A stretch of DNA of 64,000 nucleotides, taken from positions 124,001 through 188,000 of the forward strand of contig NZ_JACVAK010000004.1 of assembly GCF_014851805.1 (NCBI RefSeq), written 5' to 3'. A model generated the notes under the pieces. It did no database searches, was not told the origin of the DNA, and saw only the letters and a program-made list of their open reading frames with translations. A program made the position numbers and the translations under genes. The DNA is from Pseudoxanthomonas sp. PXM02. GTDB taxonomy: Bacteria > Pseudomonadota > Gammaproteobacteria > Xanthomonadales > Xanthomonadaceae. Shown here one piece after another: positions 37,643-46,536 of the stretch; the first letter of the stretch is position 1; the number at the start of each line of letters is the position of its first letter.

Positions 37643-37754
37643 GCGGTGGCGGGCGGACTGGAACGGGGGCACAGGGTGCCTGCCGGGGAGTAAATCTGGT
37701 GTTAACTGGCGCCCATCCTGCGCCAGTACGCTACGAACTGACGTCCATCCTGAC

Positions 37755-37760
37755 TACAAT
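37755..37760 (+). promoter_or_regulatory. -10 element of a probable leaderless arfB transcript
   Basis: TACAAT ends 7 nt before the arfB ATG with no Shine-Dalgarno in between. The upstream 60 bp shows no convincing -35. Confidence 0.4.
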
Positions 37761-37767
37761 CCGCCGC

Positions 37768-38202
37768 ATGGGGAGCACCGCACTCGAGATCACGCCGACG
37801 CTGGCGATTCCGGACGACGAACTGGTCGAGCGCTTCGTGCGTGCGAGCGGGGCCGGCGGCCAGAACGTCAACAAGGTGGCGACCGCGGTGGAGCTTCGCT
37901 TCGACGTGGCCGGTTCGCCGTCGCTGCCGGATGCGCTGCGCGAGCGTCTGCTGACCCGGCGCGACCGTCGCCTGACCGACGAGGGCGTGCTGGTGATCGA
38001 CGCCCAGCGCTTCCGCACGCAGGACCGCAATCGGCAGGATGCGCGCGAGCGGTTGGCGGCCATCATCGCCGCCGCCTTGATCGTGCCGAAGAAGCGCGTC
38101 GCCACCAAACCGTCGCGTGCGGCGAAGGCGCGTCGCCTGGATGCCAAGCGCGAGCGCAGCCAGGTCAAGCGCGGACGTTCGCAGAAGAACACTTGGGAGT
38201 AA
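37768..38202 (+). CDS. arfB: Alternative ribosome-rescue factor B (peptidyl-tRNA hydrolase)
   Basis: 144 aa from ATG 37768. The GGQ motif is in VRASGAGGQNVNKVATAVEL, and the C-terminal basic tail (KKRVATKPSRAAKARRLDAK, then RERSQVKRGRSQKNTWE) is the part that enters the empty mRNA channel. ArfB (YaeJ/ICT1) releases peptides from stalled non-stop ribosomes. Length and layout are standard. Confidence 0.94.
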   Translation: MGSTALEITPTLAIPDDELVERFVRASGAGGQNVNKVATAVELRFDVAGSPSLPDALRERLLTRRDRRLTDEGVLVIDAQRFRTQDRNRQDARERLAAIIAAALIVPKKRVATKPSRAAKARRLDAKRERSQVKRGRSQKNTWE

Positions 38203-38206
38203 CCGT

Positions 38207-38803
38207 TTGAGCCACGACATCGTTCCTGTCATCCCGCCCAACATGCCGCAGGTGCCGCCCAACCGGTTCACCCGCTGGATGGGCCGCACCTTCCTGCGGA
38301 TCTTCGGCTGGAAGATCGTGGGCACGCTGCCGGACCTGCCCAAGCTGGTGATGATCGTCGCGCCGCACTCGTCCAACTGGGACGGCATCTGGGGCATGGC
38401 GGCGAAGATCGCGATGGGCTTCCAGGTACGCGTGCTGGGCAAGGCGCAGCTGTTCTGGTGGCCGCTGTCGCCGCTGCTGCGCAAGCTCGGCGTGGTGCCG
38501 GTGGATCGCAGTTCGCCGCAGGGCACGGTGGAGCAGGCGGTGCGGATGATCCGTACCTCCGAGAAGATGTGGTTCGCGCTGACGCCGGAAGGCACGCGCA
38601 AGCGCGTGGACAAGTGGAAGGGCGGTTTCCTGAAGATCGCCCACCAGGCGCAGGTACCGATCCTGATGGCGTACTTCCATTATCCGGACAAGATCGTCGG
38701 CATTGGTGATGTGTACTACCCGACCGGCGACATGGAGACCGACATGGCGGCGATCCGGGCGTGGTACCGGCCGTGGCAAGGGAAGAATCGCGGGACGGTG
38801 TAG
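38207..38803 (+). CDS. Lysophospholipid acyltransferase-family protein
   Basis: 198 aa with a probable TTG start at 38207, 4 nt after the arfB stop, with GGGAG about 8 nt upstream; the first in-frame ATG (38243) would lose 12 residues. PlsC-family motifs: block I HSSNWD (H-x4-D), VPVDRSSPQGTVEQA and block III LTPEGTRKR. Short, without a clear membrane span beyond IFGWKIVGTLPDLPKLVMIV. Likely transfers acyl groups to a lysophosphatidate-type or other glycerolipid acceptor. The start codon choice is the weak point. Confidence 0.82.
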   Translation: MSHDIVPVIPPNMPQVPPNRFTRWMGRTFLRIFGWKIVGTLPDLPKLVMIVAPHSSNWDGIWGMAAKIAMGFQVRVLGKAQLFWWPLSPLLRKLGVVPVDRSSPQGTVEQAVRMIRTSEKMWFALTPEGTRKRVDKWKGGFLKIAHQAQVPILMAYFHYPDKIVGIGDVYYPTGDMETDMAAIRAWYRPWQGKNRGTV

Positions 38804-38878: not shown

Positions 38879-41800
38879 TTACAGCTTCTCGCCACCCAGC
38901 TTCCACGTGACCTGCAGGTAATAACTCCGGCCCATGGAATCGAACCATGACGTGTCGTAGTACGGGTAGTTGGACCACGTTGCGTCGCGTGGCGGCATCT
39001 TGTCCAGCAGGTTGTTGACGGTCAGCGATACCCGCAGGTGATCGGTAACGTCGTAGCGCGCGCCCGCATTGAAGCGCCAGGTCGCTTCGGTCCACGCATC
39101 GTTGGCGTAGTTGGCCACCTTGCCCAGATAGTTGCCGAACAGGCTGGCTCCCCACGCGTTGCGGTCCCAGCTCATGCCCAGGTTGCCTTTGTGGCGGGGC
39201 AGGGTGGTGGCGCTGAAGCTGACGTCCAGCATGTCTTCTTCAGGGTCGCCCGGGTACTGCTGGCGCGTGTGCTCGTCGGCCCAGGTGTAGCTGCCGCTGA
39301 AGCGGAAGTCGCCGGCATTGGCGGTCTGCAGCCGGTAGTTGGCGGTGACGTCGATGCCCGAGGTTTCTTCGTTGGCGATGTTGATCGGGCTGAAGTGCAC
39401 GCTGGTGATGTAGCCGTCGGCATCACGGATCACACGGGCCAGCGCATCCACGCAGGTGGGCGAATTGATGTCGACGCTCGCCCCGCTGTCGGTGACGCCG
39501 AGGCGGCAGTCGGCTTCGGTGCTGCGCAGCAGTTCGCGGTCCTGTGTCTGGACCTGGTTCATCACGCGGATCCGGTAGTAGTCCACCGCCAGATCGAAGT
39601 TGGCAGTCGGCGACCAGACGAAGCCCACCGAGGCCGAACGGCTGGTTTCGACGTCCAGGTCCATGTTGCCGGTATAGACGTCGAACGTGGCGCCATCCCA
39701 GCTGCCATCGTCGTAGCACTCGTCGTTGCTGTAGCCCGGCTCGTCGGTCCGGCACATGTAGTAGTCGGTCGCGTAGCGCGTGCGGTAGTAGTCGTCTCCG
39801 GCGAACAAGTAGTGCATGTCAGGCGCACGGAAGCCGGTGCCATAGGAGCCGCGCACCAGCAGGGTGTCGACCGGGCGCCACTCCAGGCCGGCGCTGTAGG
39901 TGAACTTGCCTGGATTCTTGTTGCCGTAGCTGTAGCGGTCGTAACGACCCGCAAGGCTGGCTTCCAGCGTGGAGGCCACCGGCAGGCGCAGTTCGGCCGC
40001 GGCGCTCCAGCGATTGCGGTCACCGCTGCCGTCGCCGTAACGCGGGCCGTAGTAGGCATCTTCGGTCAACGCCAGCGGGTCAGGGTTGATGCGATACGAC
40101 TGGCGGCCGTACTCGATCGCCGCCGCGAAGCCGGCGTCGCCGGCCGGCATGGAGAACAGGTTGGAGTTGTCCGTGGTGAAGCTGACGTTGTCGTTCTTCG
40201 CCACGGGATGCCAGGTGGACATCGCGGCGATCGAGTCGAACTCGGCAGTCGTCAGCGGCCTGAACAGACGCGACGGATCGGCGTTGTAGATGGCGTAGCC
40301 GTCGTCGTCGTAACCCAGCAGCGGGCCGAGGAACAGTTCGTTGGCCGCCGCCGCGCGGATCCGCGGCATTTCCACGTCGGCCTTGTACTCGGAGTGGTTG
40401 TAGGCCGCTTCCCAGTTCCATGCGTCGCCGAAGGCGCCAGTGAAACCGGTAGTCACCGCCAGCGTCTTCTGGGTGGTGGTGTTCATGCGGTTGCGCAGGC
40501 CGCCGGTCTCCTCCGGCGTGAACTGGCGCGACCAGATCTCGTAGCGCTCCGTGGCGGCGTTGTAGAAGACCTTGTTGCGGTAGTTGTTGGTCGACGCGGG
40601 ATCGTGGAACTCCCAGCCCATGTGGTCGCTGGCCGCGAGATTGCCGTTGGTGCCGGTCAGCAGCTTGACGGTCTGGCGGCCGGCCTGCACGTCGGCGAAC
40701 CAGGACAGGTTGTCGTTGATCCGGTACTCGAACGCGCCGTAGGCCGTGATGCCGCGACGTTCGTTCTGGATGGTGCGGTAGGCGATGGCGCGGTCGCTGC
40801 CGCAGTACGTGCCGTAGTCCGGATCTTCCGCCAGCACCGTGGTGCCTTCGTTCAAGCCGGCCATGCTGGCACAGTCGTCGGTCGGCGACACGTTGAGGTC
40901 GTTGTCCCAGTCGTAGAGCTGCGCTGTCATGCGGGGGAGGCGGCGCTCCTCCGTCGGGGCATCGAAGGTCGAGTCCTGGTTACGCCGTTCGAAACCCCAC
41001 AACGGTCGCTTGTCGAGCAATTCCACACCGACGATGCCACTGAAGTTGCCGCGTTCGAAGCCGGTGGTCAGCGTCAGCTTGTGGGATTCGCCACCACCGC
41101 GTTCGGTATCACCGTAGCGGTAGTCGATGATGGTGCCGTCGGTGGACTTCTTCAGGATGAAGTTGATCACGCCGGCCATCGCGTCGGATCCGTAGACGGC
41201 AGACGCGCTGCCGGTCAGCACTTCCATGCGATCGATCATGCCGAGCGGGATGTTGCCGATGTCGGTGAAGTTGCTGCGTCCGTTCAATGGCAGCGGAAAG
41301 TCGGCGACGCGGCGGCCATTGATCAACACCAGCGTGTGGTTGGGGCCCAGGCCTCGCAGATCGACGGCTTGTGCGCCAGGCGTGGACTGCGCGTTGGTGG
41401 TGTTCTGCTGGCCATAGACACTGCCGCTGTTCTGGCTCAGCGAGCGCAGCACATCGGCGACCGATGTCAGGCCGGCGGCCTGGATCTGCTCGGCGGTCAC
41501 CACGGTGATCGGCGCGGGGCCCTCTATTTCCGCACGTTTGATGCGCGAGCCGGTGACCTGCAGGGTCTCCAACTGGGTTACGGGTTCTTCGGCTTGCGCG
41601 CCGCCGCCGGGAGGCGCCTCCTGAGGCGCGGGACGCGGCGCCGGTGCGCGACGGGGCGCGGTGTCGGCCTGCACGATCAGCACGGCGCCGGAGGCATCGC
41701 GCTTGGCCTGGAAGCCGCTGCCCTGCAGCAGGCGGTCAAGCGCCTGGTCGGTCGAGGTGGCGCCCTGCACTCCCGTGGTGCGTCGGCCCTTCAACTGATC

Positions 41801-41965
41801 GGCACGGTAGACCAGCTGCGTGCCGGACTGCTTGGCCAACGTGTTCAACGCCGTAGCCAGCTCCCCTGCTGGCAGATCGATGCGGCCCGGGGCCGCCTGG
41901 GCCTGCGCGGCAAGCGCCGCACTACAGGCCGCACTCAACAACAGCATGCGCACTGGATACCGCAT
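38879..41965 (-). CDS. TonB-dependent receptor with N-terminal STN signalling domain
   Basis: 1028 aa from ATG 41965 (MRYPVRMLLLSAACSAALAA signal). Residues about 27-100 are an STN domain (GRIDLPAGELATALNTLAKQ, GATSTDQALDRLLQGSGFQA), which signals to a FecR protein. The plug follows a Pro-rich linker: LETLQVTGSRIKRAEIEG, then PAPITVVTAEQIQAAGLTSV and VLINGRRVADFPLP, with YGSDAMAGVINFILKK. The beta-barrel ends YYLQVTWKLGGEKL. The barrel resembles the NAGG/oligopeptide type more than siderophore receptors, but the ligand is unknown. Forms one unit with the FecR and ECF genes upstream. Confidence 0.92.
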   Translation of the reverse strand: MRYPVRMLLLSAACSAALAAQAQAAPGRIDLPAGELATALNTLAKQSGTQLVYRADQLKGRRTTGVQGATSTDQALDRLLQGSGFQAKRDASGAVLIVQADTAPRRAPAPRPAPQEAPPGGGAQAEEPVTQLETLQVTGSRIKRAEIEGPAPITVVTAEQIQAAGLTSVADVLRSLSQNSGSVYGQQNTTNAQSTPGAQAVDLRGLGPNHTLVLINGRRVADFPLPLNGRSNFTDIGNIPLGMIDRMEVLTGSASAVYGSDAMAGVINFILKKSTDGTIIDYRYGDTERGGGESHKLTLTTGFERGNFSGIVGVELLDKRPLWGFERRNQDSTFDAPTEERRLPRMTAQLYDWDNDLNVSPTDDCASMAGLNEGTTVLAEDPDYGTYCGSDRAIAYRTIQNERRGITAYGAFEYRINDNLSWFADVQAGRQTVKLLTGTNGNLAASDHMGWEFHDPASTNNYRNKVFYNAATERYEIWSRQFTPEETGGLRNRMNTTTQKTLAVTTGFTGAFGDAWNWEAAYNHSEYKADVEMPRIRAAAANELFLGPLLGYDDDGYAIYNADPSRLFRPLTTAEFDSIAAMSTWHPVAKNDNVSFTTDNSNLFSMPAGDAGFAAAIEYGRQSYRINPDPLALTEDAYYGPRYGDGSGDRNRWSAAAELRLPVASTLEASLAGRYDRYSYGNKNPGKFTYSAGLEWRPVDTLLVRGSYGTGFRAPDMHYLFAGDDYYRTRYATDYYMCRTDEPGYSNDECYDDGSWDGATFDVYTGNMDLDVETSRSASVGFVWSPTANFDLAVDYYRIRVMNQVQTQDRELLRSTEADCRLGVTDSGASVDINSPTCVDALARVIRDADGYITSVHFSPINIANEETSGIDVTANYRLQTANAGDFRFSGSYTWADEHTRQQYPGDPEEDMLDVSFSATTLPRHKGNLGMSWDRNAWGASLFGNYLGKVANYANDAWTEATWRFNAGARYDVTDHLRVSLTVNNLLDKMPPRDATWSNYPYYDTSWFDSMGRSYYLQVTWKLGGEKL

Positions 41966-42064
41966 CGACTCTCTCCCCGGGGGCGCTCGGAATGGCGCCT
42001 GTTGGCTATCAGGACGAACGAACCGCGCAAATCCCCCCATGACCTTCGTCGTGGCGGTGGGGGC

Positions 42065-43117
42065 CTAGCGTGTGTGCAGCACGATGCGGTCCGCATGCCG
42101 CTCCGCGCGCACCGGAAATCCCTGCTCCAGCAGGTGCGCGAAGCCGTCGGCATTGGACCAGCGGAAGTTGCCGCCCACGCGCAGGTCGGCGACGGCGGCG
42201 TCGCCCAGTTCCAGCTTGCGCGTGTTGAAGCGGTTGAACTCGGCGGCGGCGTCCGCCAGCGAGGTGTCGTCGAAGGTCAGGAAACCGTCGCGCCATTCCA
42301 GGAAGCGCTCCGCCTCGGCCACCGGCAGCGAGCGCACCAGCACGCCGTTGCGACCGGCGGTGGCCACGCTGCCGGCCGGTAGCAGCGACACCGGCTGCGC
42401 GGTGCCGTCCGGAGCGGGGCGGCTCTCCAGCCGCACCTTGCCCTCGGTCACCACCACACGGATTTCCTGCGGATCCCGCCGCACGGAGAAGCGCGTGCCT
42501 ACCGCTGCGACGCGACGTCCATCCGTCTCGACCACGAACGGCCGCCGCGTGTCGTGGGCGACGTCGAAGAACGCTTCGCCTTTCGCCAACGCTACGTGCC
42601 GCTCGCCGCGGCTGATCTGCACATCCACGCGGCTGTCGCTGCTCAACGTGGCGACGGAGCCATCCGGCAGCGTGACGGTCTGGATCTGGCCGACGCCGCT
42701 GGCATAGCTGGCCTGCTCGCGACCGGTCAGCTGCCAGCTGCCCCACGCGGCGGAACCGAGCGCGACCAGGGTCAGCGCCGCCGCGATGCCGTGCTGCCAT
42801 CCGCGGCGGCGCGGGGTGCTGCGGTCCCGGGGAGCGAAGCGGAGATCGCGCAGATCGGGAGCCGCGCCGGTTGCGTCAGAGGCGATCGCCGAACCCGCAC
42901 GCGCCGGCAGCGTGCCCGCGGGCAGGCCGGCGGCCAGTGCCTGCAGGCGACCGGTCTCGTTCCAGGCGGACTGCACGCGCAGGAAGGCGACCTTGTGCCG
43001 CGACGACGCCGACAGCCAGGCATCCAGTGCCTGCTGCTCGCCTGTCGTCCAGTCCTCCGCGTCGCGCCGGGCCAGCCAGTCGGCGGCCTGCGCTTCAATC
43101 TGTCTGCTGTCGGCCAT
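42065..43117 (-). CDS. fecR: FecR-family anti-sigma factor
   Basis: 350 aa from ATG 43117, which lies inside the end of the sigma gene (23-nt overlap). N-terminal DUF4880-type segment (QAADWLARRDAEDWTTGEQQ, LDAWLSASSRHKVAFLRVQS), one membrane span near residues 97-115 (HGIAAALTLVALGSAAWGSW), then the periplasmic FecR domain (LPDGSVATLSSDSRVDVQIS, RHVALAKGEAFFDVAHD) and an STN-like end (DTSLADAAAEFNRFNTRKLE). Relays occupancy of the receptor STN domain to the ECF sigma factor. Confidence 0.92.
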   Translation of the reverse strand: MADSRQIEAQAADWLARRDAEDWTTGEQQALDAWLSASSRHKVAFLRVQSAWNETGRLQALAAGLPAGTLPARAGSAIASDATGAAPDLRDLRFAPRDRSTPRRRGWQHGIAAALTLVALGSAAWGSWQLTGREQASYASGVGQIQTVTLPDGSVATLSSDSRVDVQISRGERHVALAKGEAFFDVAHDTRRPFVVETDGRRVAAVGTRFSVRRDPQEIRVVVTEGKVRLESRPAPDGTAQPVSLLPAGSVATAGRNGVLVRSLPVAEAERFLEWRDGFLTFDDTSLADAAAEFNRFNTRKLELGDAAVADLRVGGNFRWSNADGFAHLLEQGFPVRAERHADRIVLHTR

Positions 43118-43688
43118 GTGCTTCGTCCTCGTCCATGACGGGCCGGGCACGTCGCCCGTCCAGCGCAGGCACGGCGTCGCCGCCGTACAGGTGGTCGGCG
43201 ATCAGGCGCATCCCTTTGGCCAAATGCTTTTCCACGGTCTTCTCGCTGATGCCCAGTCGACGGGCGACGTCCTTCTGCGGCAGTTCCTCAACGCGCCGCA
43301 GCCACACCACTTCGCGGCAACGGTCGGGGAGCCGGTCCAGGGCCTCGACCACGCGCTTGAGCGCCTGTCGGGTCCCGGTCCACCGCTCGGGCGACACCTC
43401 GTCGATCAGGTAGACGTTCGAGGACTCGAAATCACCCACTGGCTCGATCGACACCACCCGGCTGCGGCGCAGGCGGTCGGTCATCAGGTGGCGCGCGGTG
43501 GCGAACAGGAAGGCCTTGGGCGCATCGGGACGCGCGCGCCCGGCGGCTTCATAGACCCGCGCGTAGACCTCCTGGCGCAGGTCGTGCCATTCGTCGCGGT
43601 GCGGCCAGCTGCGCTGCAGGAACATCGCCAGCGCCCGTTCGTGGACGAGCACTTCGCGGACGAACCAATCGTCGAATTCGGTGGGCAT
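43095..43688 (-). CDS. fecI: ECF sigma factor, FecI type
   Basis: 197 aa. Region 2 (HRDEWHDLRQEVYARVYEAA with FLFATARHLMTDRLRRSRVV) and region 4 (ALDRLPDRCREVVWLRRVEE, LPQKDVARRLGISEKTVEKH) are complete. The C-terminal tail after residue 170 is Arg/Asp rich. It directs RNA polymerase to the receptor operon when released by FecR. It is divergent, by 120 bp, from the cyanophycinase-peptidase fusion gene. Confidence 0.93.
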   Translation of the reverse strand: MPTEFDDWFVREVLVHERALAMFLQRSWPHRDEWHDLRQEVYARVYEAAGRARPDAPKAFLFATARHLMTDRLRRSRVVSIEPVGDFESSNVYLIDEVSPERWTGTRQALKRVVEALDRLPDRCREVVWLRRVEELPQKDVARRLGISEKTVEKHLAKGMRLIADHLYGGDAVPALDGRRARPVMDEDEAHGRQQTD

Positions 43689-43808
43689 GTCCGCACTCTA
43701 GCCCAAGCGCGAACGCTTCCGCATGGGGGAACACCGCCGCCGGTTCGTCTCACTTCGTCATCGGTGCGTGGCATCCTGCCGCGACCTTCGACCTGGGAGT
43801 ACGACGGC

Positions 43809-45749
43809 ATGGTGTCAGTCTTCGGCATGTTGCAGCGCGGCGCGATCTGCGTGGTGGCGCTCGCCTTGTCCTTGCCGGCGCTCGCCGCCAAGCCCGCGCA
43901 CTACGTGCTCGGCGACACCACGGCGAAAACGCCGGGACAGGTGCAGCCGGGCCTGCTGCTGATGGGCGGCGGCGACCGCAACTTCGATGCCATGCACTGG
44001 TTCATTAAGAAGGCCGGCAATGGCCACATCGTCGTGCTGCGTGCGTCGCAGGCCGGTGAGATCGGCGAGGAATTCTTCAACGAGGTCGGCGGCATCGTTT
44101 CCGTTGAAACCTACGTGTTCAGCGATCGCGAAAGCGCCAGCGATCCCGCCGTACTGCGCAGCCTGAAGCGCGCCGACGGCATCTTTCTGGCCGGTGGCGA
44201 CCAGTCGCGTTACGTGCGCTACTGGCGCGGCACGCCGGTGGGTGCGGCGCTGGACGCGCATGTGCGCGCAGGCAAGCCGCTCGGCGGAACGAGCGCCGGC
44301 CTGGCGATGCAGGGCGAGTACCTGTACGGCGCGATGGACGGCGGCAGCCAGATCAGCCCGCGCGCGCTGGCCGATCCGCTCGGTGCCGACAACACCATCG
44401 AGACCGGCTTCCTGCAGCTGGCCCTGCTGAAGGGCGTGCTGACCGACACGCACTTCAGTGAGCGCAACCGTCTCGGCCGCCTGATCGCGTTCGTCGCCAA
44501 GGCCGAGTCGATGGCCGGTCGCCCGATCCTCGGACTCGGTGTGGACGAGGACGCTGCGGTCGCGGTGGAAGGCGACGGCAGCGCGCGCGTGTATGCCACT
44601 GCGCCGGGTGCTGGCGCCACGGTGGTCAAGGGCGGCTTCGCGCAGAAGCAGGTCGAAGACGAGGCGATGAACCTCGATCGCGTCGACACGGTCATCGCCG
44701 GTGTCGACTCCGTACTGCACCTGCCGAGCGGTCGCGTCGACAGGCCCGCCGCCGAGCGTCATTACGCCGTGCGCAACGGCGTGCTGGTGGCGCTGGATTC
44801 GCCGCTGCTGGTGATCCACGGCGGTGCCGGCGTCGAGCGCGCCGGCATGACGCCGGCTGACGAAGACGCGGCACGCAAAGCGCTGGAAGCGGCGCTGCGC
44901 GCGGGCCACGCGCAACTCACGGCCGGCAAGCCGGCGCTGGATGCCGTGACTGCCGCGATCACCGTGCTGGAGGATGCGCCGCAGTTCAATGCCGGTCGCG
45001 GCGCGGTGTTCACCCACGACGGCAAGAACGAACTGGATTCCTCGATCATGGACGGCGCCACCGGCAAGGCCGGTGCCGTGGCCGGCGTGCACCGCGTCAA
45101 GAACCCGATCACGCTGGCGCGCGCGGTAATGGACAAGTCGCGCCACGTGATGATGGTCGGTGGCGGCGCCGAGGCGTTCGCGAAGGAGCAGGGCATCACA
45201 CTGGTCAATCCTTCGTACTTCCGCACCGAGAAGCGCTGGCAGCAGCTGCAGAACGCGCTGAAGGAAGAGAAGCAGGCGCAGGCGAGCAACACGTCGCTCG
45301 AACTGCCGGGCAAGGCCTACTTCGGCACCGTCGGCGCACTGGCGCTCGACGCGAAGGGCCAGCTGGCCGCGGGTACGTCGACCGGTGGCATGACCAACAA
45401 GCGCTACGGCCGCGTCGGCGACTCGCCGATCATCGGCGCGGGCACCTGGGCCGATGACCGCTGCGCGTTCTCGGGCACCGGCTGGGGTGAGTACTACATC
45501 CGCGCGGCCGCCGCCCACGAAGTCTGCGCCCGCGTGCGCCTGGCCGGGCACAGCATCGCGCGCGCCTCGGAAGGCGTGATCAACCGCGACATCCCCAAGG
45601 CCGGCGGCGACGGCGGCGCCATCGCGCTGGGCGCCGACGGCAGCATGGCCTTCCCGTTCAACACCGAAGGCATGTACCGCGGCTGGATCGGCGCCGACGG
45701 CGTCCCGCACGTGGCGATCTACAAGGAAGATCCGCTGCCTGCGCGCTGA
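43809..45749 (+). CDS. Secreted cyanophycinase / isoaspartyl peptidase fusion
   Basis: 646 aa from ATG 43809 (GGGAG 9-13 nt upstream). Signal peptide GAICVVALALSLPALAA. Residues about 40-325 are a cyanophycinase-like S51 domain: LLMGGGDRNFDAMHW, FLAGGDQSRYV, nucleophile Ser162 in GGTSAGLAMQG, DTHFSERNRLGRLIA and GLGVDEDAAVAVEG. Residues about 330-640 are a plant-type (type 2) asparaginase/isoaspartyl peptidase: LLVIHGGAGV, FNAGRGAVFTHDGKNELDSS, self-cleaving Thr507 in GTVGALALD, TSTGGMTNKRYGRVGDSPII. Known cyanophycinases release beta-Asp-Arg dipeptides and isoaspartyl dipeptidases split them, so both steps of cyanophycin breakdown sit in one exported chain. Actual substrate unproven. Confidence 0.9.
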   Translation: MVSVFGMLQRGAICVVALALSLPALAAKPAHYVLGDTTAKTPGQVQPGLLLMGGGDRNFDAMHWFIKKAGNGHIVVLRASQAGEIGEEFFNEVGGIVSVETYVFSDRESASDPAVLRSLKRADGIFLAGGDQSRYVRYWRGTPVGAALDAHVRAGKPLGGTSAGLAMQGEYLYGAMDGGSQISPRALADPLGADNTIETGFLQLALLKGVLTDTHFSERNRLGRLIAFVAKAESMAGRPILGLGVDEDAAVAVEGDGSARVYATAPGAGATVVKGGFAQKQVEDEAMNLDRVDTVIAGVDSVLHLPSGRVDRPAAERHYAVRNGVLVALDSPLLVIHGGAGVERAGMTPADEDAARKALEAALRAGHAQLTAGKPALDAVTAAITVLEDAPQFNAGRGAVFTHDGKNELDSSIMDGATGKAGAVAGVHRVKNPITLARAVMDKSRHVMMVGGGAEAFAKEQGITLVNPSYFRTEKRWQQLQNALKEEKQAQASNTSLELPGKAYFGTVGALALDAKGQLAAGTSTGGMTNKRYGRVGDSPIIGAGTWADDRCAFSGTGWGEYYIRAAAAHEVCARVRLAGHSIARASEGVINRDIPKAGGDGGAIALGADGSMAFPFNTEGMYRGWIGADGVPHVAIYKEDPLPAR

Positions 45750-45795: not shown

Positions 45796-46536
45796 ATGAA
45801 GAGGGCGCTGTGGGTCGGCCTGCTGGCGTTCGCGTCAGCGGCGTCAGCAGGGGAGGCAAAGAACGAGGCAGTCAAGTTCCATGCCAATGCACGCGTGATC
45901 CTTGATGATCAAGGTGTGCCGCAACAGGTGCAGGCGGGTGAAACGCTGCCTGAGGCCATCCGCGCACTCGTCGAACAGCGCGTCATGACATGGCGGTTCG
46001 AACCGGCGCAGGTCAACGGCGTACCGATGGCAGGTGTCACCCATGTATTCCTGAATGCCTGCCTGGCCCCGCTTCCGGGCGACGGCATGAGTCTGGCGAT
46101 GAATTACCGGAACCATGGGCCGGGTTATGCAGGCGGCGCATCGCTGCCGCCGCCGCCGCGCTATCCCGCCAGAGCTGCCCGTGACGACAAGGAGGGCAGC
46201 TTCCGTGTGGTGACCCGGATTGAAACGGATGGTCGCGCGAAGATCGAGTCGATAGAAACGGTGTCCGGTTCGTTGAAGGTTTTCGAGCCGGCGCTGCGGG
46301 AATGGGTGGCGTCTATCCGCTACCTGCCGGAACAGGTAGCCGGCATGCCGATTGCCACGCGGGTGGCGTATCCGGTCACGTTCGCTATTCCCGGGGGATC
46401 CCTCAGTCGACTCAGGAAAGAGCGTCGTGAGGCCGACCTGCAATCCGCCGAATGCCAGGCGGCCACCGGTCAGGACGGCAATGCGCCGCGCCCTGTCGTG
46501 CTGGATTCTCCGTTCAAGCTGCGGGACGCAGGCTGA
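45796..46536 (+). CDS. Secreted TonB-C-like protein, paralogue B
   Basis: 246 aa. Signal peptide MKRALWVGLLAFASAASAGE, with a strong AAGGAGGGGG site. The core (ARVILDDQGVPQQVQAGETL, VMTWRFEPAQVNGVPMAGVT, PPPPRYPARAARDDKEGSFR) is clearly homologous to the 28498-29370 protein in domain order: a first 'DG/DD.G....V' strand set with VM-x-W-x-FEP, then a second 'PP.RYP' unit. Two cysteines flank the middle. Not a membrane-anchored TonB. It follows the fusion peptidase gene by 46 bp and could be in the same transcript. Confidence 0.7.
   Translation: MKRALWVGLLAFASAASAGEAKNEAVKFHANARVILDDQGVPQQVQAGETLPEAIRALVEQRVMTWRFEPAQVNGVPMAGVTHVFLNACLAPLPGDGMSLAMNYRNHGPGYAGGASLPPPPRYPARAARDDKEGSFRVVTRIETDGRAKIESIETVSGSLKVFEPALREWVASIRYLPEQVAGMPIATRVAYPVTFAIPGGSLSRLRKERREADLQSAECQAATGQDGNAPRPVVLDSPFKLRDAG

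Follow-up and report, generated by a model that had tools for sequence, protein, structure and literature searches.

Cyanophycin is a nitrogen reserve polymer of cyanobacteria, and to our knowledge little is known of its uptake by other bacteria and of the way in which they complete its breakdown outside their own granules. A locus of Pseudoxanthomonas sp. PXM02, a bacterium of soil and water, raises the question of whether a single exported protein might carry out both steps of that breakdown and of how the polymer would reach it. Within the 64,000 nucleotides analyzed here (the window), one gene encodes a leader peptide, an S51-type cyanophycinase domain, and an isoaspartyl peptidase domain, and it lies divergent from genes for an ECF sigma factor, a FecR-type regulator, and a TonB-dependent receptor (Table 1). 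We consider it likely that the product is an exported two-step cyanophycin degrader and that the locus around it is a receptor-coupled, substrate-sensing one for scavenging external cyanophycin. An earlier note on this DNA had proposed such a degrader; the leader and the two intact domains with their catalytic residues stand, but the suggestion that autocleavage would separate the two enzymes does not. The divergent genes, and relatives in which separate genes encode the two domains, are additions to that note.

Table 1. Features of the fused gene and its divergent neighbors; S51 rows are from the best 80 of 269 encoding stretches
Feature	Position in window	Strand	Basis
Fused exported cyanophycinase (S51, CphE-like)/isoaspartyl peptidase (IaaA-like) gene, 646 aa	43809..45749	+	Translation, Pfam, PDB matches, relatives
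Putative Sec leader peptide, residues 1-26	43809..43886	+	By eye; cleavage after ALA, no lipobox, both by eye
Cyanophycinase domain, TIGR02069 match at residues 81-270	44049..44618	+	Profile matches; Pfam S51 at 112-257
Ser162, predicted S51 nucleophile, in GGTSAG	44292..44294	+	Ser in 60/60 S51 rows
His215, predicted S51 catalytic histidine, in TDTHFSERNRLGR	44451..44453	+	His in 60/60 S51 rows
Glu247, predicted third S51 triad member	44547..44549	+	Glu in 57/60 S51 rows, Gln in 3
Junction, about residues 320-335, cyanophycinase end to first peptidase strand (LLVIHGGAG)	44766..44813	+	No linker
Isoaspartyl peptidase (Ntn-hydrolase, Asparaginase_2) domain, residues 332-638	44802..45722	+	Pfam and PDB matches
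Thr507, predicted self-cleavage nucleophile and first beta-chain residue, in GTVGALALD	45327..45329	+	PDB chain matches, alignment
ECF sigma factor gene, divergent from fused gene	43095..43688	-	Neighborhood homology and domain matches
FecR-type regulator gene	42065..43150	-	Neighborhood homology and domain matches
TonB-dependent receptor gene, with N-terminal STN signaling domain	38879..42040	-	Domain matches
Conserved blocks (cgcactctagcc; ccggttcgtct; ggtgcgtggcatcctgcc) between sigma and fused genes	43692..43782	.	Alignment with 9 close relatives

Reading frame, leader, and cyanophycinase domain

Translation of the gene (43809 to 45749, plus strand) yields 646 amino acids followed by a stop codon, with no internal stops, just as the earlier note had described, and the same single open frame recurs in 44 of the 198 family genomes. 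This recurrence and the strong constraint on both domains rule out a broken or chance frame as well as a sequencing error; in five pairwise comparisons, dN/dS was 0.01 to 0.08 in both domains and 0.09 to 0.37 over the 35 codons surrounding the junction. We retained the ATG at 43809 as the start because GGGAG stands nine bases upstream and because the matches of nine Pseudoxanthomonas relatives (L041 to L046, L059, L068, and L069) begin at residue 1. By eye, residues 1 to about 26 resemble a Sec leader, in keeping with the signal peptide claimed at the outset. The opposite strand is open across 631 codons (43815 to 45710, minus strand), which is probably an effect of high-G+C codon use.

Pfam recognized Peptidase_S51 at residues 112 to 257 (40.7 bits against a cut-off of 23.9), and a PDB sequence search with the first 330 residues returned three matches at an E value of 0.01 or better (3en0, 7uqw, and 7uqv), all of them cyanophycinases. 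Alignment to CphB placed the S51 triad at Ser162, His215, and Glu247, the last two of which the earlier note had left unassigned, with the GxSxG elbow present. The S51-type cyanophycinase domain with Ser162 in GGTSAG is thus borne out, and the catalytic His and Glu, whose loss the earlier note had named as damaging to its proposal, are both in place in the window.

In the excerpted text of PMC3235067, the pocket residues of CphB are given as Gln101, Asp172, Gln173, Arg178, Arg180, and Arg183, and the extracellular CphE is said to retain all of these but Gln173, which is Thr there. The window follows the CphE pattern (Gln132, Asp213, Thr214, Arg219, Arg221, and Arg224), and its Ser-to-His spacing of 53 residues equals that of CphE. 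The CphE proteins of Pseudomonas anguilliseptica BI and P. alcaligenes DIP1 share with the window's domain a leader, the Ser/His/Glu triad, and the pocket of Gln, Asp, Thr, and three Arg, a likeness that rests on the residues printed for CphEal in the same excerpts. CphE, encoded by a 1260-bp gene, stands alone, whereas the window's domain leads without interruption into an isoaspartyl peptidase. Across the S51 rows compared, drawn from the best 80 of 269 encoding stretches (54 domains, 32 fused and 22 split, together with 5 third-gene copies), the Ser, His, Gln, Asp, and three Arg were invariant, and the position of CphB Gln173 was held by Thr, Ser, or Gln. In three of the five Rhodanobacter fusions in this set (L063, L064, and L066), the catalytic Glu has become Gln, with Ser and His retained; the cyanophycinase step of these proteins may be altered or lost.

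The third triad member also bears on the very improbable alternative that the S51 domain detoxifies isoaspartyl-nucleotide antibiotics in the manner of MccG, the antibiotic entering through the receptor. Peptidases of such function do exist among the S51 relatives covered by PMC9239234, but in the excerpted part of that source their clade has a conserved Asp where the window has Glu, and the toxic product arises inside the cell, whereas the window's protein has a leader. Glu alone would not exclude this function, since PepE and CphB also have it.

A different alternative, which we regard as unlikely, is that this exported protein scavenges Asp-containing peptides in general: its S51 domain would be a PepE-like aspartyl dipeptidase, its C-terminal domain would clear isoaspartyl residues of aged proteins, and cyanophycin would not be the main substrate. 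The score of 104 bits against TIGR02069 (cyanophycinase), the nearest NCBIfam model for the N-terminal part, is under the curated cut-off of 126.6 and lends itself to this reading; four relatives (two split, one stand-alone, and one fused) likewise score under that cut-off, at 77 to 105 bits. The CphB/CphE pocket, kept in 60 of 60 S51 rows (best 80 of 269) bar the Gln173 position, and the uniformly cyanophycinase PDB matches of the N-terminal part speak against it. From the sequence, we infer that the substrate of the S51 domain is cyanophycin.

Isoaspartyl peptidase domain and predicted self-cleavage

The full Asparaginase_2 model (positions 1 to 309 of 309, 365 bits) matched residues 332 to 638, and the E. 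coli isoaspartyl peptidase (PDB 2zak, E value of 8e-83) matched across residues 333 to 640, so that the type 2 isoaspartyl peptidase domain with Thr507 in GTVGALALD, as first proposed, is well founded. The nearest NCBIfam model, PRK10226 (beta-aspartyl-peptidase), gave 311 bits, and its equivalog cut-off of 567 was not reached. Thr507, Thr525, Arg535, Asp538, Thr557, and Gly558 were invariant in the 32 fused, 22 split, and 24 peptidase-only rows from the best 80 of 269 stretches, and we take the active-site roles of the first five to be those known for the IaaA family. IaaA (EcAIII; PDB 2zak and 8dqm) shares the whole Ntn-hydrolase domain, the Thr nucleophile, and Thr525, Arg535, Asp538, and Thr557, but in E. 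coli it is a separate protein, whereas the window's domain has a 330-residue exported N-terminal extension. Trp559, which is Thr in E. coli IaaA, was considered as a mark of cyanophycin specificity and ruled out, as the leaderless paralogue in the same genome shares the Trp.

The solved alpha chains of this family align to the window up to residues 486 to 504 (491 for 8dqm), and the solved beta chains start at window residue 507 or 508. Self-cleavage before Thr507 is predicted and would give fragments of residues 27 to 506 (cyanophycinase plus alpha chain) and 507 to 646 (beta chain). The notion that the C-terminal domain autocleaves and thereby parts the two enzymes has to be abandoned, because Thr507 lies within the peptidase (332 to 638) and because the alpha and beta chains of known members of this Ntn-hydrolase family stay in complex after self-cleavage. 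Autocleavage as a release of the peptidase from the cyanophycinase is ruled out: the predicted cut falls inside the peptidase and would free the beta chain only, the alpha chain staying joined to the cyanophycinase.

The C-terminal domain may serve other peptides as well, since two isoaspartyl dipeptidases from cyanophycin clusters were promiscuous in the assays described in the excerpted text of PMC10206079, a property that would also suit a general Asp-peptide scavenger. So would the 24 loci, among the best 80 of 269 stretches, that have the C-terminal domain but no cyanophycinase (a leader was seen by eye in the 4 looked at); because these loci keep the domain on its own, it must have a use of its own.

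Distribution of the fusion and its split relatives

A search for the fused architecture, the check that the earlier note had proposed, showed the fusion to be conserved in the family and in further lineages. The 44 of 198 family genomes with full-length, single-frame matches fall in 14 of 54 genera, and the window's genus has the fusion in four of nine genomes. In the order-, class-, and phylum-level draws, which overlap with one another and with the family draw, it was present in 16 of 200 genomes (three families), 2 of 369 (both from the window's own family), and 3 of 398 (one of these, G1085, being 49% identical and of another family), respectively. The protein of Pseudoxanthomonas sp. PXM01 (L041) is 99% identical to the window's. 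Two Novosphingobium megaplasmids carry the fusion (60% and 57% identity), which is also present in Rhodanobacter and Chitinophagaceae. Phage records gave three matches, none covering 80% of the 646-residue protein, and an independent fusion considered in G245 was ruled out, as it consists of two adjacent genes without leaders.

For comparison of loci, the best 80 of 269 encoding stretches in named genomes were kept as 78 loci, a set biased to close relatives whose members are related to one another, so that its counts are not independent. Thirty-two of these are fused (29 Proteobacteria and 3 Chitinophagaceae), 22 are split into two neighboring genes (17 Proteobacteria and 5 Bacteroidota), and 24 have the peptidase only. 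At the 15 split loci of this set that were looked at, the cyanophycinase gene comes first and the peptidase gene second, in the same direction, each with a hydrophobic leader of its own (by eye). Neighboring same-direction genes with separate leaders in relatives are a usual sign of shared function, and for this reason we suppose that the two domains work together. Sharon and Schmeing (2023, PMC10206079) likewise found, in the part of their article excerpted, that cyanophycinase-isoaspartyl peptidase clusters occur in genomes without cyanophycin synthetase, the genes being clustered in 94% of 32 such genomes with IaaA. The same two activities are encoded together for scavenging there, but in separate genes, and those excerpts mention neither a fusion nor a signal peptide. 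We found no account of a cyanophycinase-isoaspartyl peptidase fusion in the excerpts available from the open-license literature, and it may be described elsewhere.

From the Glu motif to GGAG, the distance is 95 to 96 residues in Lysobacteraceae fusions (in L054, 93 to the corresponding position), 98 in Rhodanobacter fusions, and 112 in L067. At the proteobacterial split loci, the 17 cyanophycinase genes stop 90 to 118 residues past the Glu motif, 13 of them within 100. Because the split-gene ends match the distances in the fusions, the main-group fusion reads as a linker-free joining of the first protein's end onto the second's first strand, with the second leader absent. Trees made by a quick method from rows of the best 80 of 269 stretches (the program warned of long branches) need 10 changes among fused, split, and peptidase-only rows for the peptidase and 3 changes between fused and split for S51, all 3 forced by starred branches; such counts give no direction, whether joining or parting of genes. 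Separate fused groups appear on the S51 tree, namely, Lysobacteraceae (24 rows, window included), Rhodanobacter (5), L067, and Chitinophagaceae (3). The 24-row clade has a long stem there (1.08), whereas on the peptidase tree the same lineages have short stems and are interspersed among split and peptidase-only rows. Given this disparity, we tentatively suggest that the S51 part of the clade changed fast or was replaced.

Two other arrangements were observed. In five loci (L099, L103, L112, L113, and L116; four Pedobacter and one Chitinophagaceae), the cyanophycinase and peptidase genes are followed by a third gene for a very distant second S51 protein, and the first cyanophycinase of L099 and L103 is lipoprotein-like by eye. 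An operon on a Deinococcus plasmid (L129) holds genes for a cyanophycin synthetase, an isoaspartyl peptidase, a cyanophycinase, a Mur ligase family protein, and a second synthetase-annotated product, all separate, in a storage-type contrast to the exported fusion.

The window's genome has one S51 match, the fusion itself, and no cyanophycin synthetase over the cut-off (best match, 77 of 850 bits). It also encodes a separate IaaA (L002, leaderless by eye and 58% identical to the C-terminal domain) and a more distant relative of that domain (L003). With a cyanophycinase, an isoaspartyl dipeptidase, a transporter (the TonB receptor, by its presumed cargo), and no CphA, the locus has the makeup of a cyanophycin utilization locus, an arrangement that Sharon and Schmeing (2023) cite. 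In the family, a synthetase over the cut-off was found in 41 of 198 genomes, and it was commoner among genomes with the fusion (18 of 44) than among the others (23 of 154; Fisher p 0.0005, kinship ignored). Since 18 of the 44 fusion genomes encode a synthetase, "scavenging only" need not hold for all of them. The same association would favor a further alternative, which strikes us as quite unlikely, that the fusion serves mainly in the turnover of kin-made cyanophycin released on lysis and not of the cyanobacterial polymer. This is hard to square with the 26 of 44 fusion genomes, the window's included, that have no synthetase over the cut-off, and an exported enzyme should be barred from the stored granules of a living cell. 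Elsewhere, a cphA-cphB pair is reported for Lysobacter capsici (PMC4742617, as excerpted), and synthetase, cyanophycinase, and peptidase genes are reported for Dyadobacter (PMC11573002, as excerpted).

Receptor and regulatory genes and the proposed pathway

Of the 46 proteobacterial loci with an S51 domain from the best 80 of 269 stretches, 45 have a homologue of the window's receptor (threshold, E value of 1e-8) next to that domain, 29 of 29 fused and 16 of 17 split loci; at the lone exception, L072, the contig ends inside FecR. None of the 24 peptidase-only loci of this set has a homologue at that threshold, L083 and L095 having less than 4 kb of upstream sequence. Given 45 of 46 against 0 of 24, the receptor goes with the S51 domain in Proteobacteria and not with the C-terminal domain, which again argues against a general Asp-peptide scavenger. 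The receptor is also found in L130 to L134 (L132 is apparently the contig of L052, the two being equally long) and at both plasmid loci, and the lone cyanophycinase gene of L125 is divergent from a gene for such a receptor. At the same threshold, none of the eight Bacteroidota loci (best 80 of 269) has a homologue of the window's receptor; there, the receptor link depends on another protein, a SusC-like one recognized by eye at a single locus (L100, Chitinophagaceae), where the order is FecR, SusC-like receptor with an STN-like start, SusD-like gene, and fused gene (names by eye). The window's receptor itself matched 23 NCBIfam models, in every case with a score far under the cut-off.

Of the proteobacterial loci (best 80 of 269), 28 of the 29 fused and 12 of the 17 split ones include the sigma and FecR genes. 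STN was found in 40 of 47 receptors (the window, 45 loci, and L125): all 40 with sigma and FecR have it and none of the 7 without, the STN-less receptors (L065, L067, L101, L102, L109, L115, and L125) being exactly those of loci without sigma and FecR. At the window locus, the ECF sigma factor, FecR, and an STN-bearing receptor occur together as a FecIRA-type module, and the FecI-FecR-FecA transmembrane signaling system likewise has them in one block; unlike that system, the window's block adjoins a peptide-degrading enzyme. The stretch between the sigma and fused genes contains conserved blocks (Table 1) that are candidate promoter elements, or a candidate ECF sigma binding site. A TonB receptor near a cyanophycinase gene in Citromicrobium has been read as serving cyanophycin uptake (PMC3400609); in contrast to the window locus, the excerpted text of that report mentions no fusion or isoaspartyl peptidase.

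Downstream of the fused gene lies a gene with a TonB_C domain (45796 to 46536, plus strand), with homologues (E value of 1e-8) in 6 of 78 loci (best 80 of 269), all of them Pseudoxanthomonas and fused; it may or may not serve the receptor. On the other side, the window's locus is flanked by release-factor-like (by eye) and acyltransferase genes at 37699 to 38803. A peptidase-only gene comes after those flanking genes at 16 Xanthomonas loci and L095 (together L080 to L087, L090, L091, L093 to L098, and L107), and at L080, where the isoaspartyl peptidase shows a leader by eye, the M3 peptidase gene that comes next is the one also seen at the fused loci L056, L057, and L122. Between the acyltransferase and peptidase-only genes of these 17 loci, no remnant of a cyanophycinase, sigma, FecR, or receptor gene was found at an E value of 0.01. 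The simplest reading would be that Xanthomonas lost the receptor, FecR, sigma, and cyanophycinase genes and kept the peptidase.

For an exported two-step degrader, we would picture the following sequence of events. Once the protein has been exported by the Sec route, its N-terminal CphE-like domain would free beta-Asp-Arg (or beta-Asp-Lys) dipeptides from the polymer. The C-terminal domain, having folded and cut itself before Thr507, would hydrolyze these dipeptides to Asp and Arg or Lys, and the covalent alpha-chain link would hold both active sites together in a single complex. Passage of the polymer or its fragments through the outer membrane would be the task of the divergently encoded TonB-dependent receptor, and substrate binding would turn on the locus through the receptor's STN domain, FecR, and the ECF sigma factor. 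The receptor's cargo, the signaling, the cell compartment, and any channeling are all features that we infer. Because free dipeptides should pass porins, a TonB receptor suggests that pieces of the polymer are imported and finished in the periplasm. The fusion enzyme may instead be located outside the cell, as the Pseudomonas CphE is believed to be secreted further (PMC3235067, as excerpted). One can go further, albeit tentatively and with considerable doubt, and envisage a self-processed complex of cyanophycinase domains on an isoaspartyl-peptidase core, with a dedicated TonB receptor drawing the polymer in, a single particle, periplasmic or at the surface, taking it down to free amino acids, and sensing of the polymer by STN turning on the whole locus, the joining having arisen more than once (in Proteobacteria and Bacteroidota).

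If the activities are as predicted, the fusion would allow cyanophycin to be converted to free arginine and aspartate by a single enzyme, which would be useful in polymer processing. With the fusion present in several separate lineages and the receptor tied to the cyanophycinase part, a route for cyanophycin uptake becomes testable in one locus.
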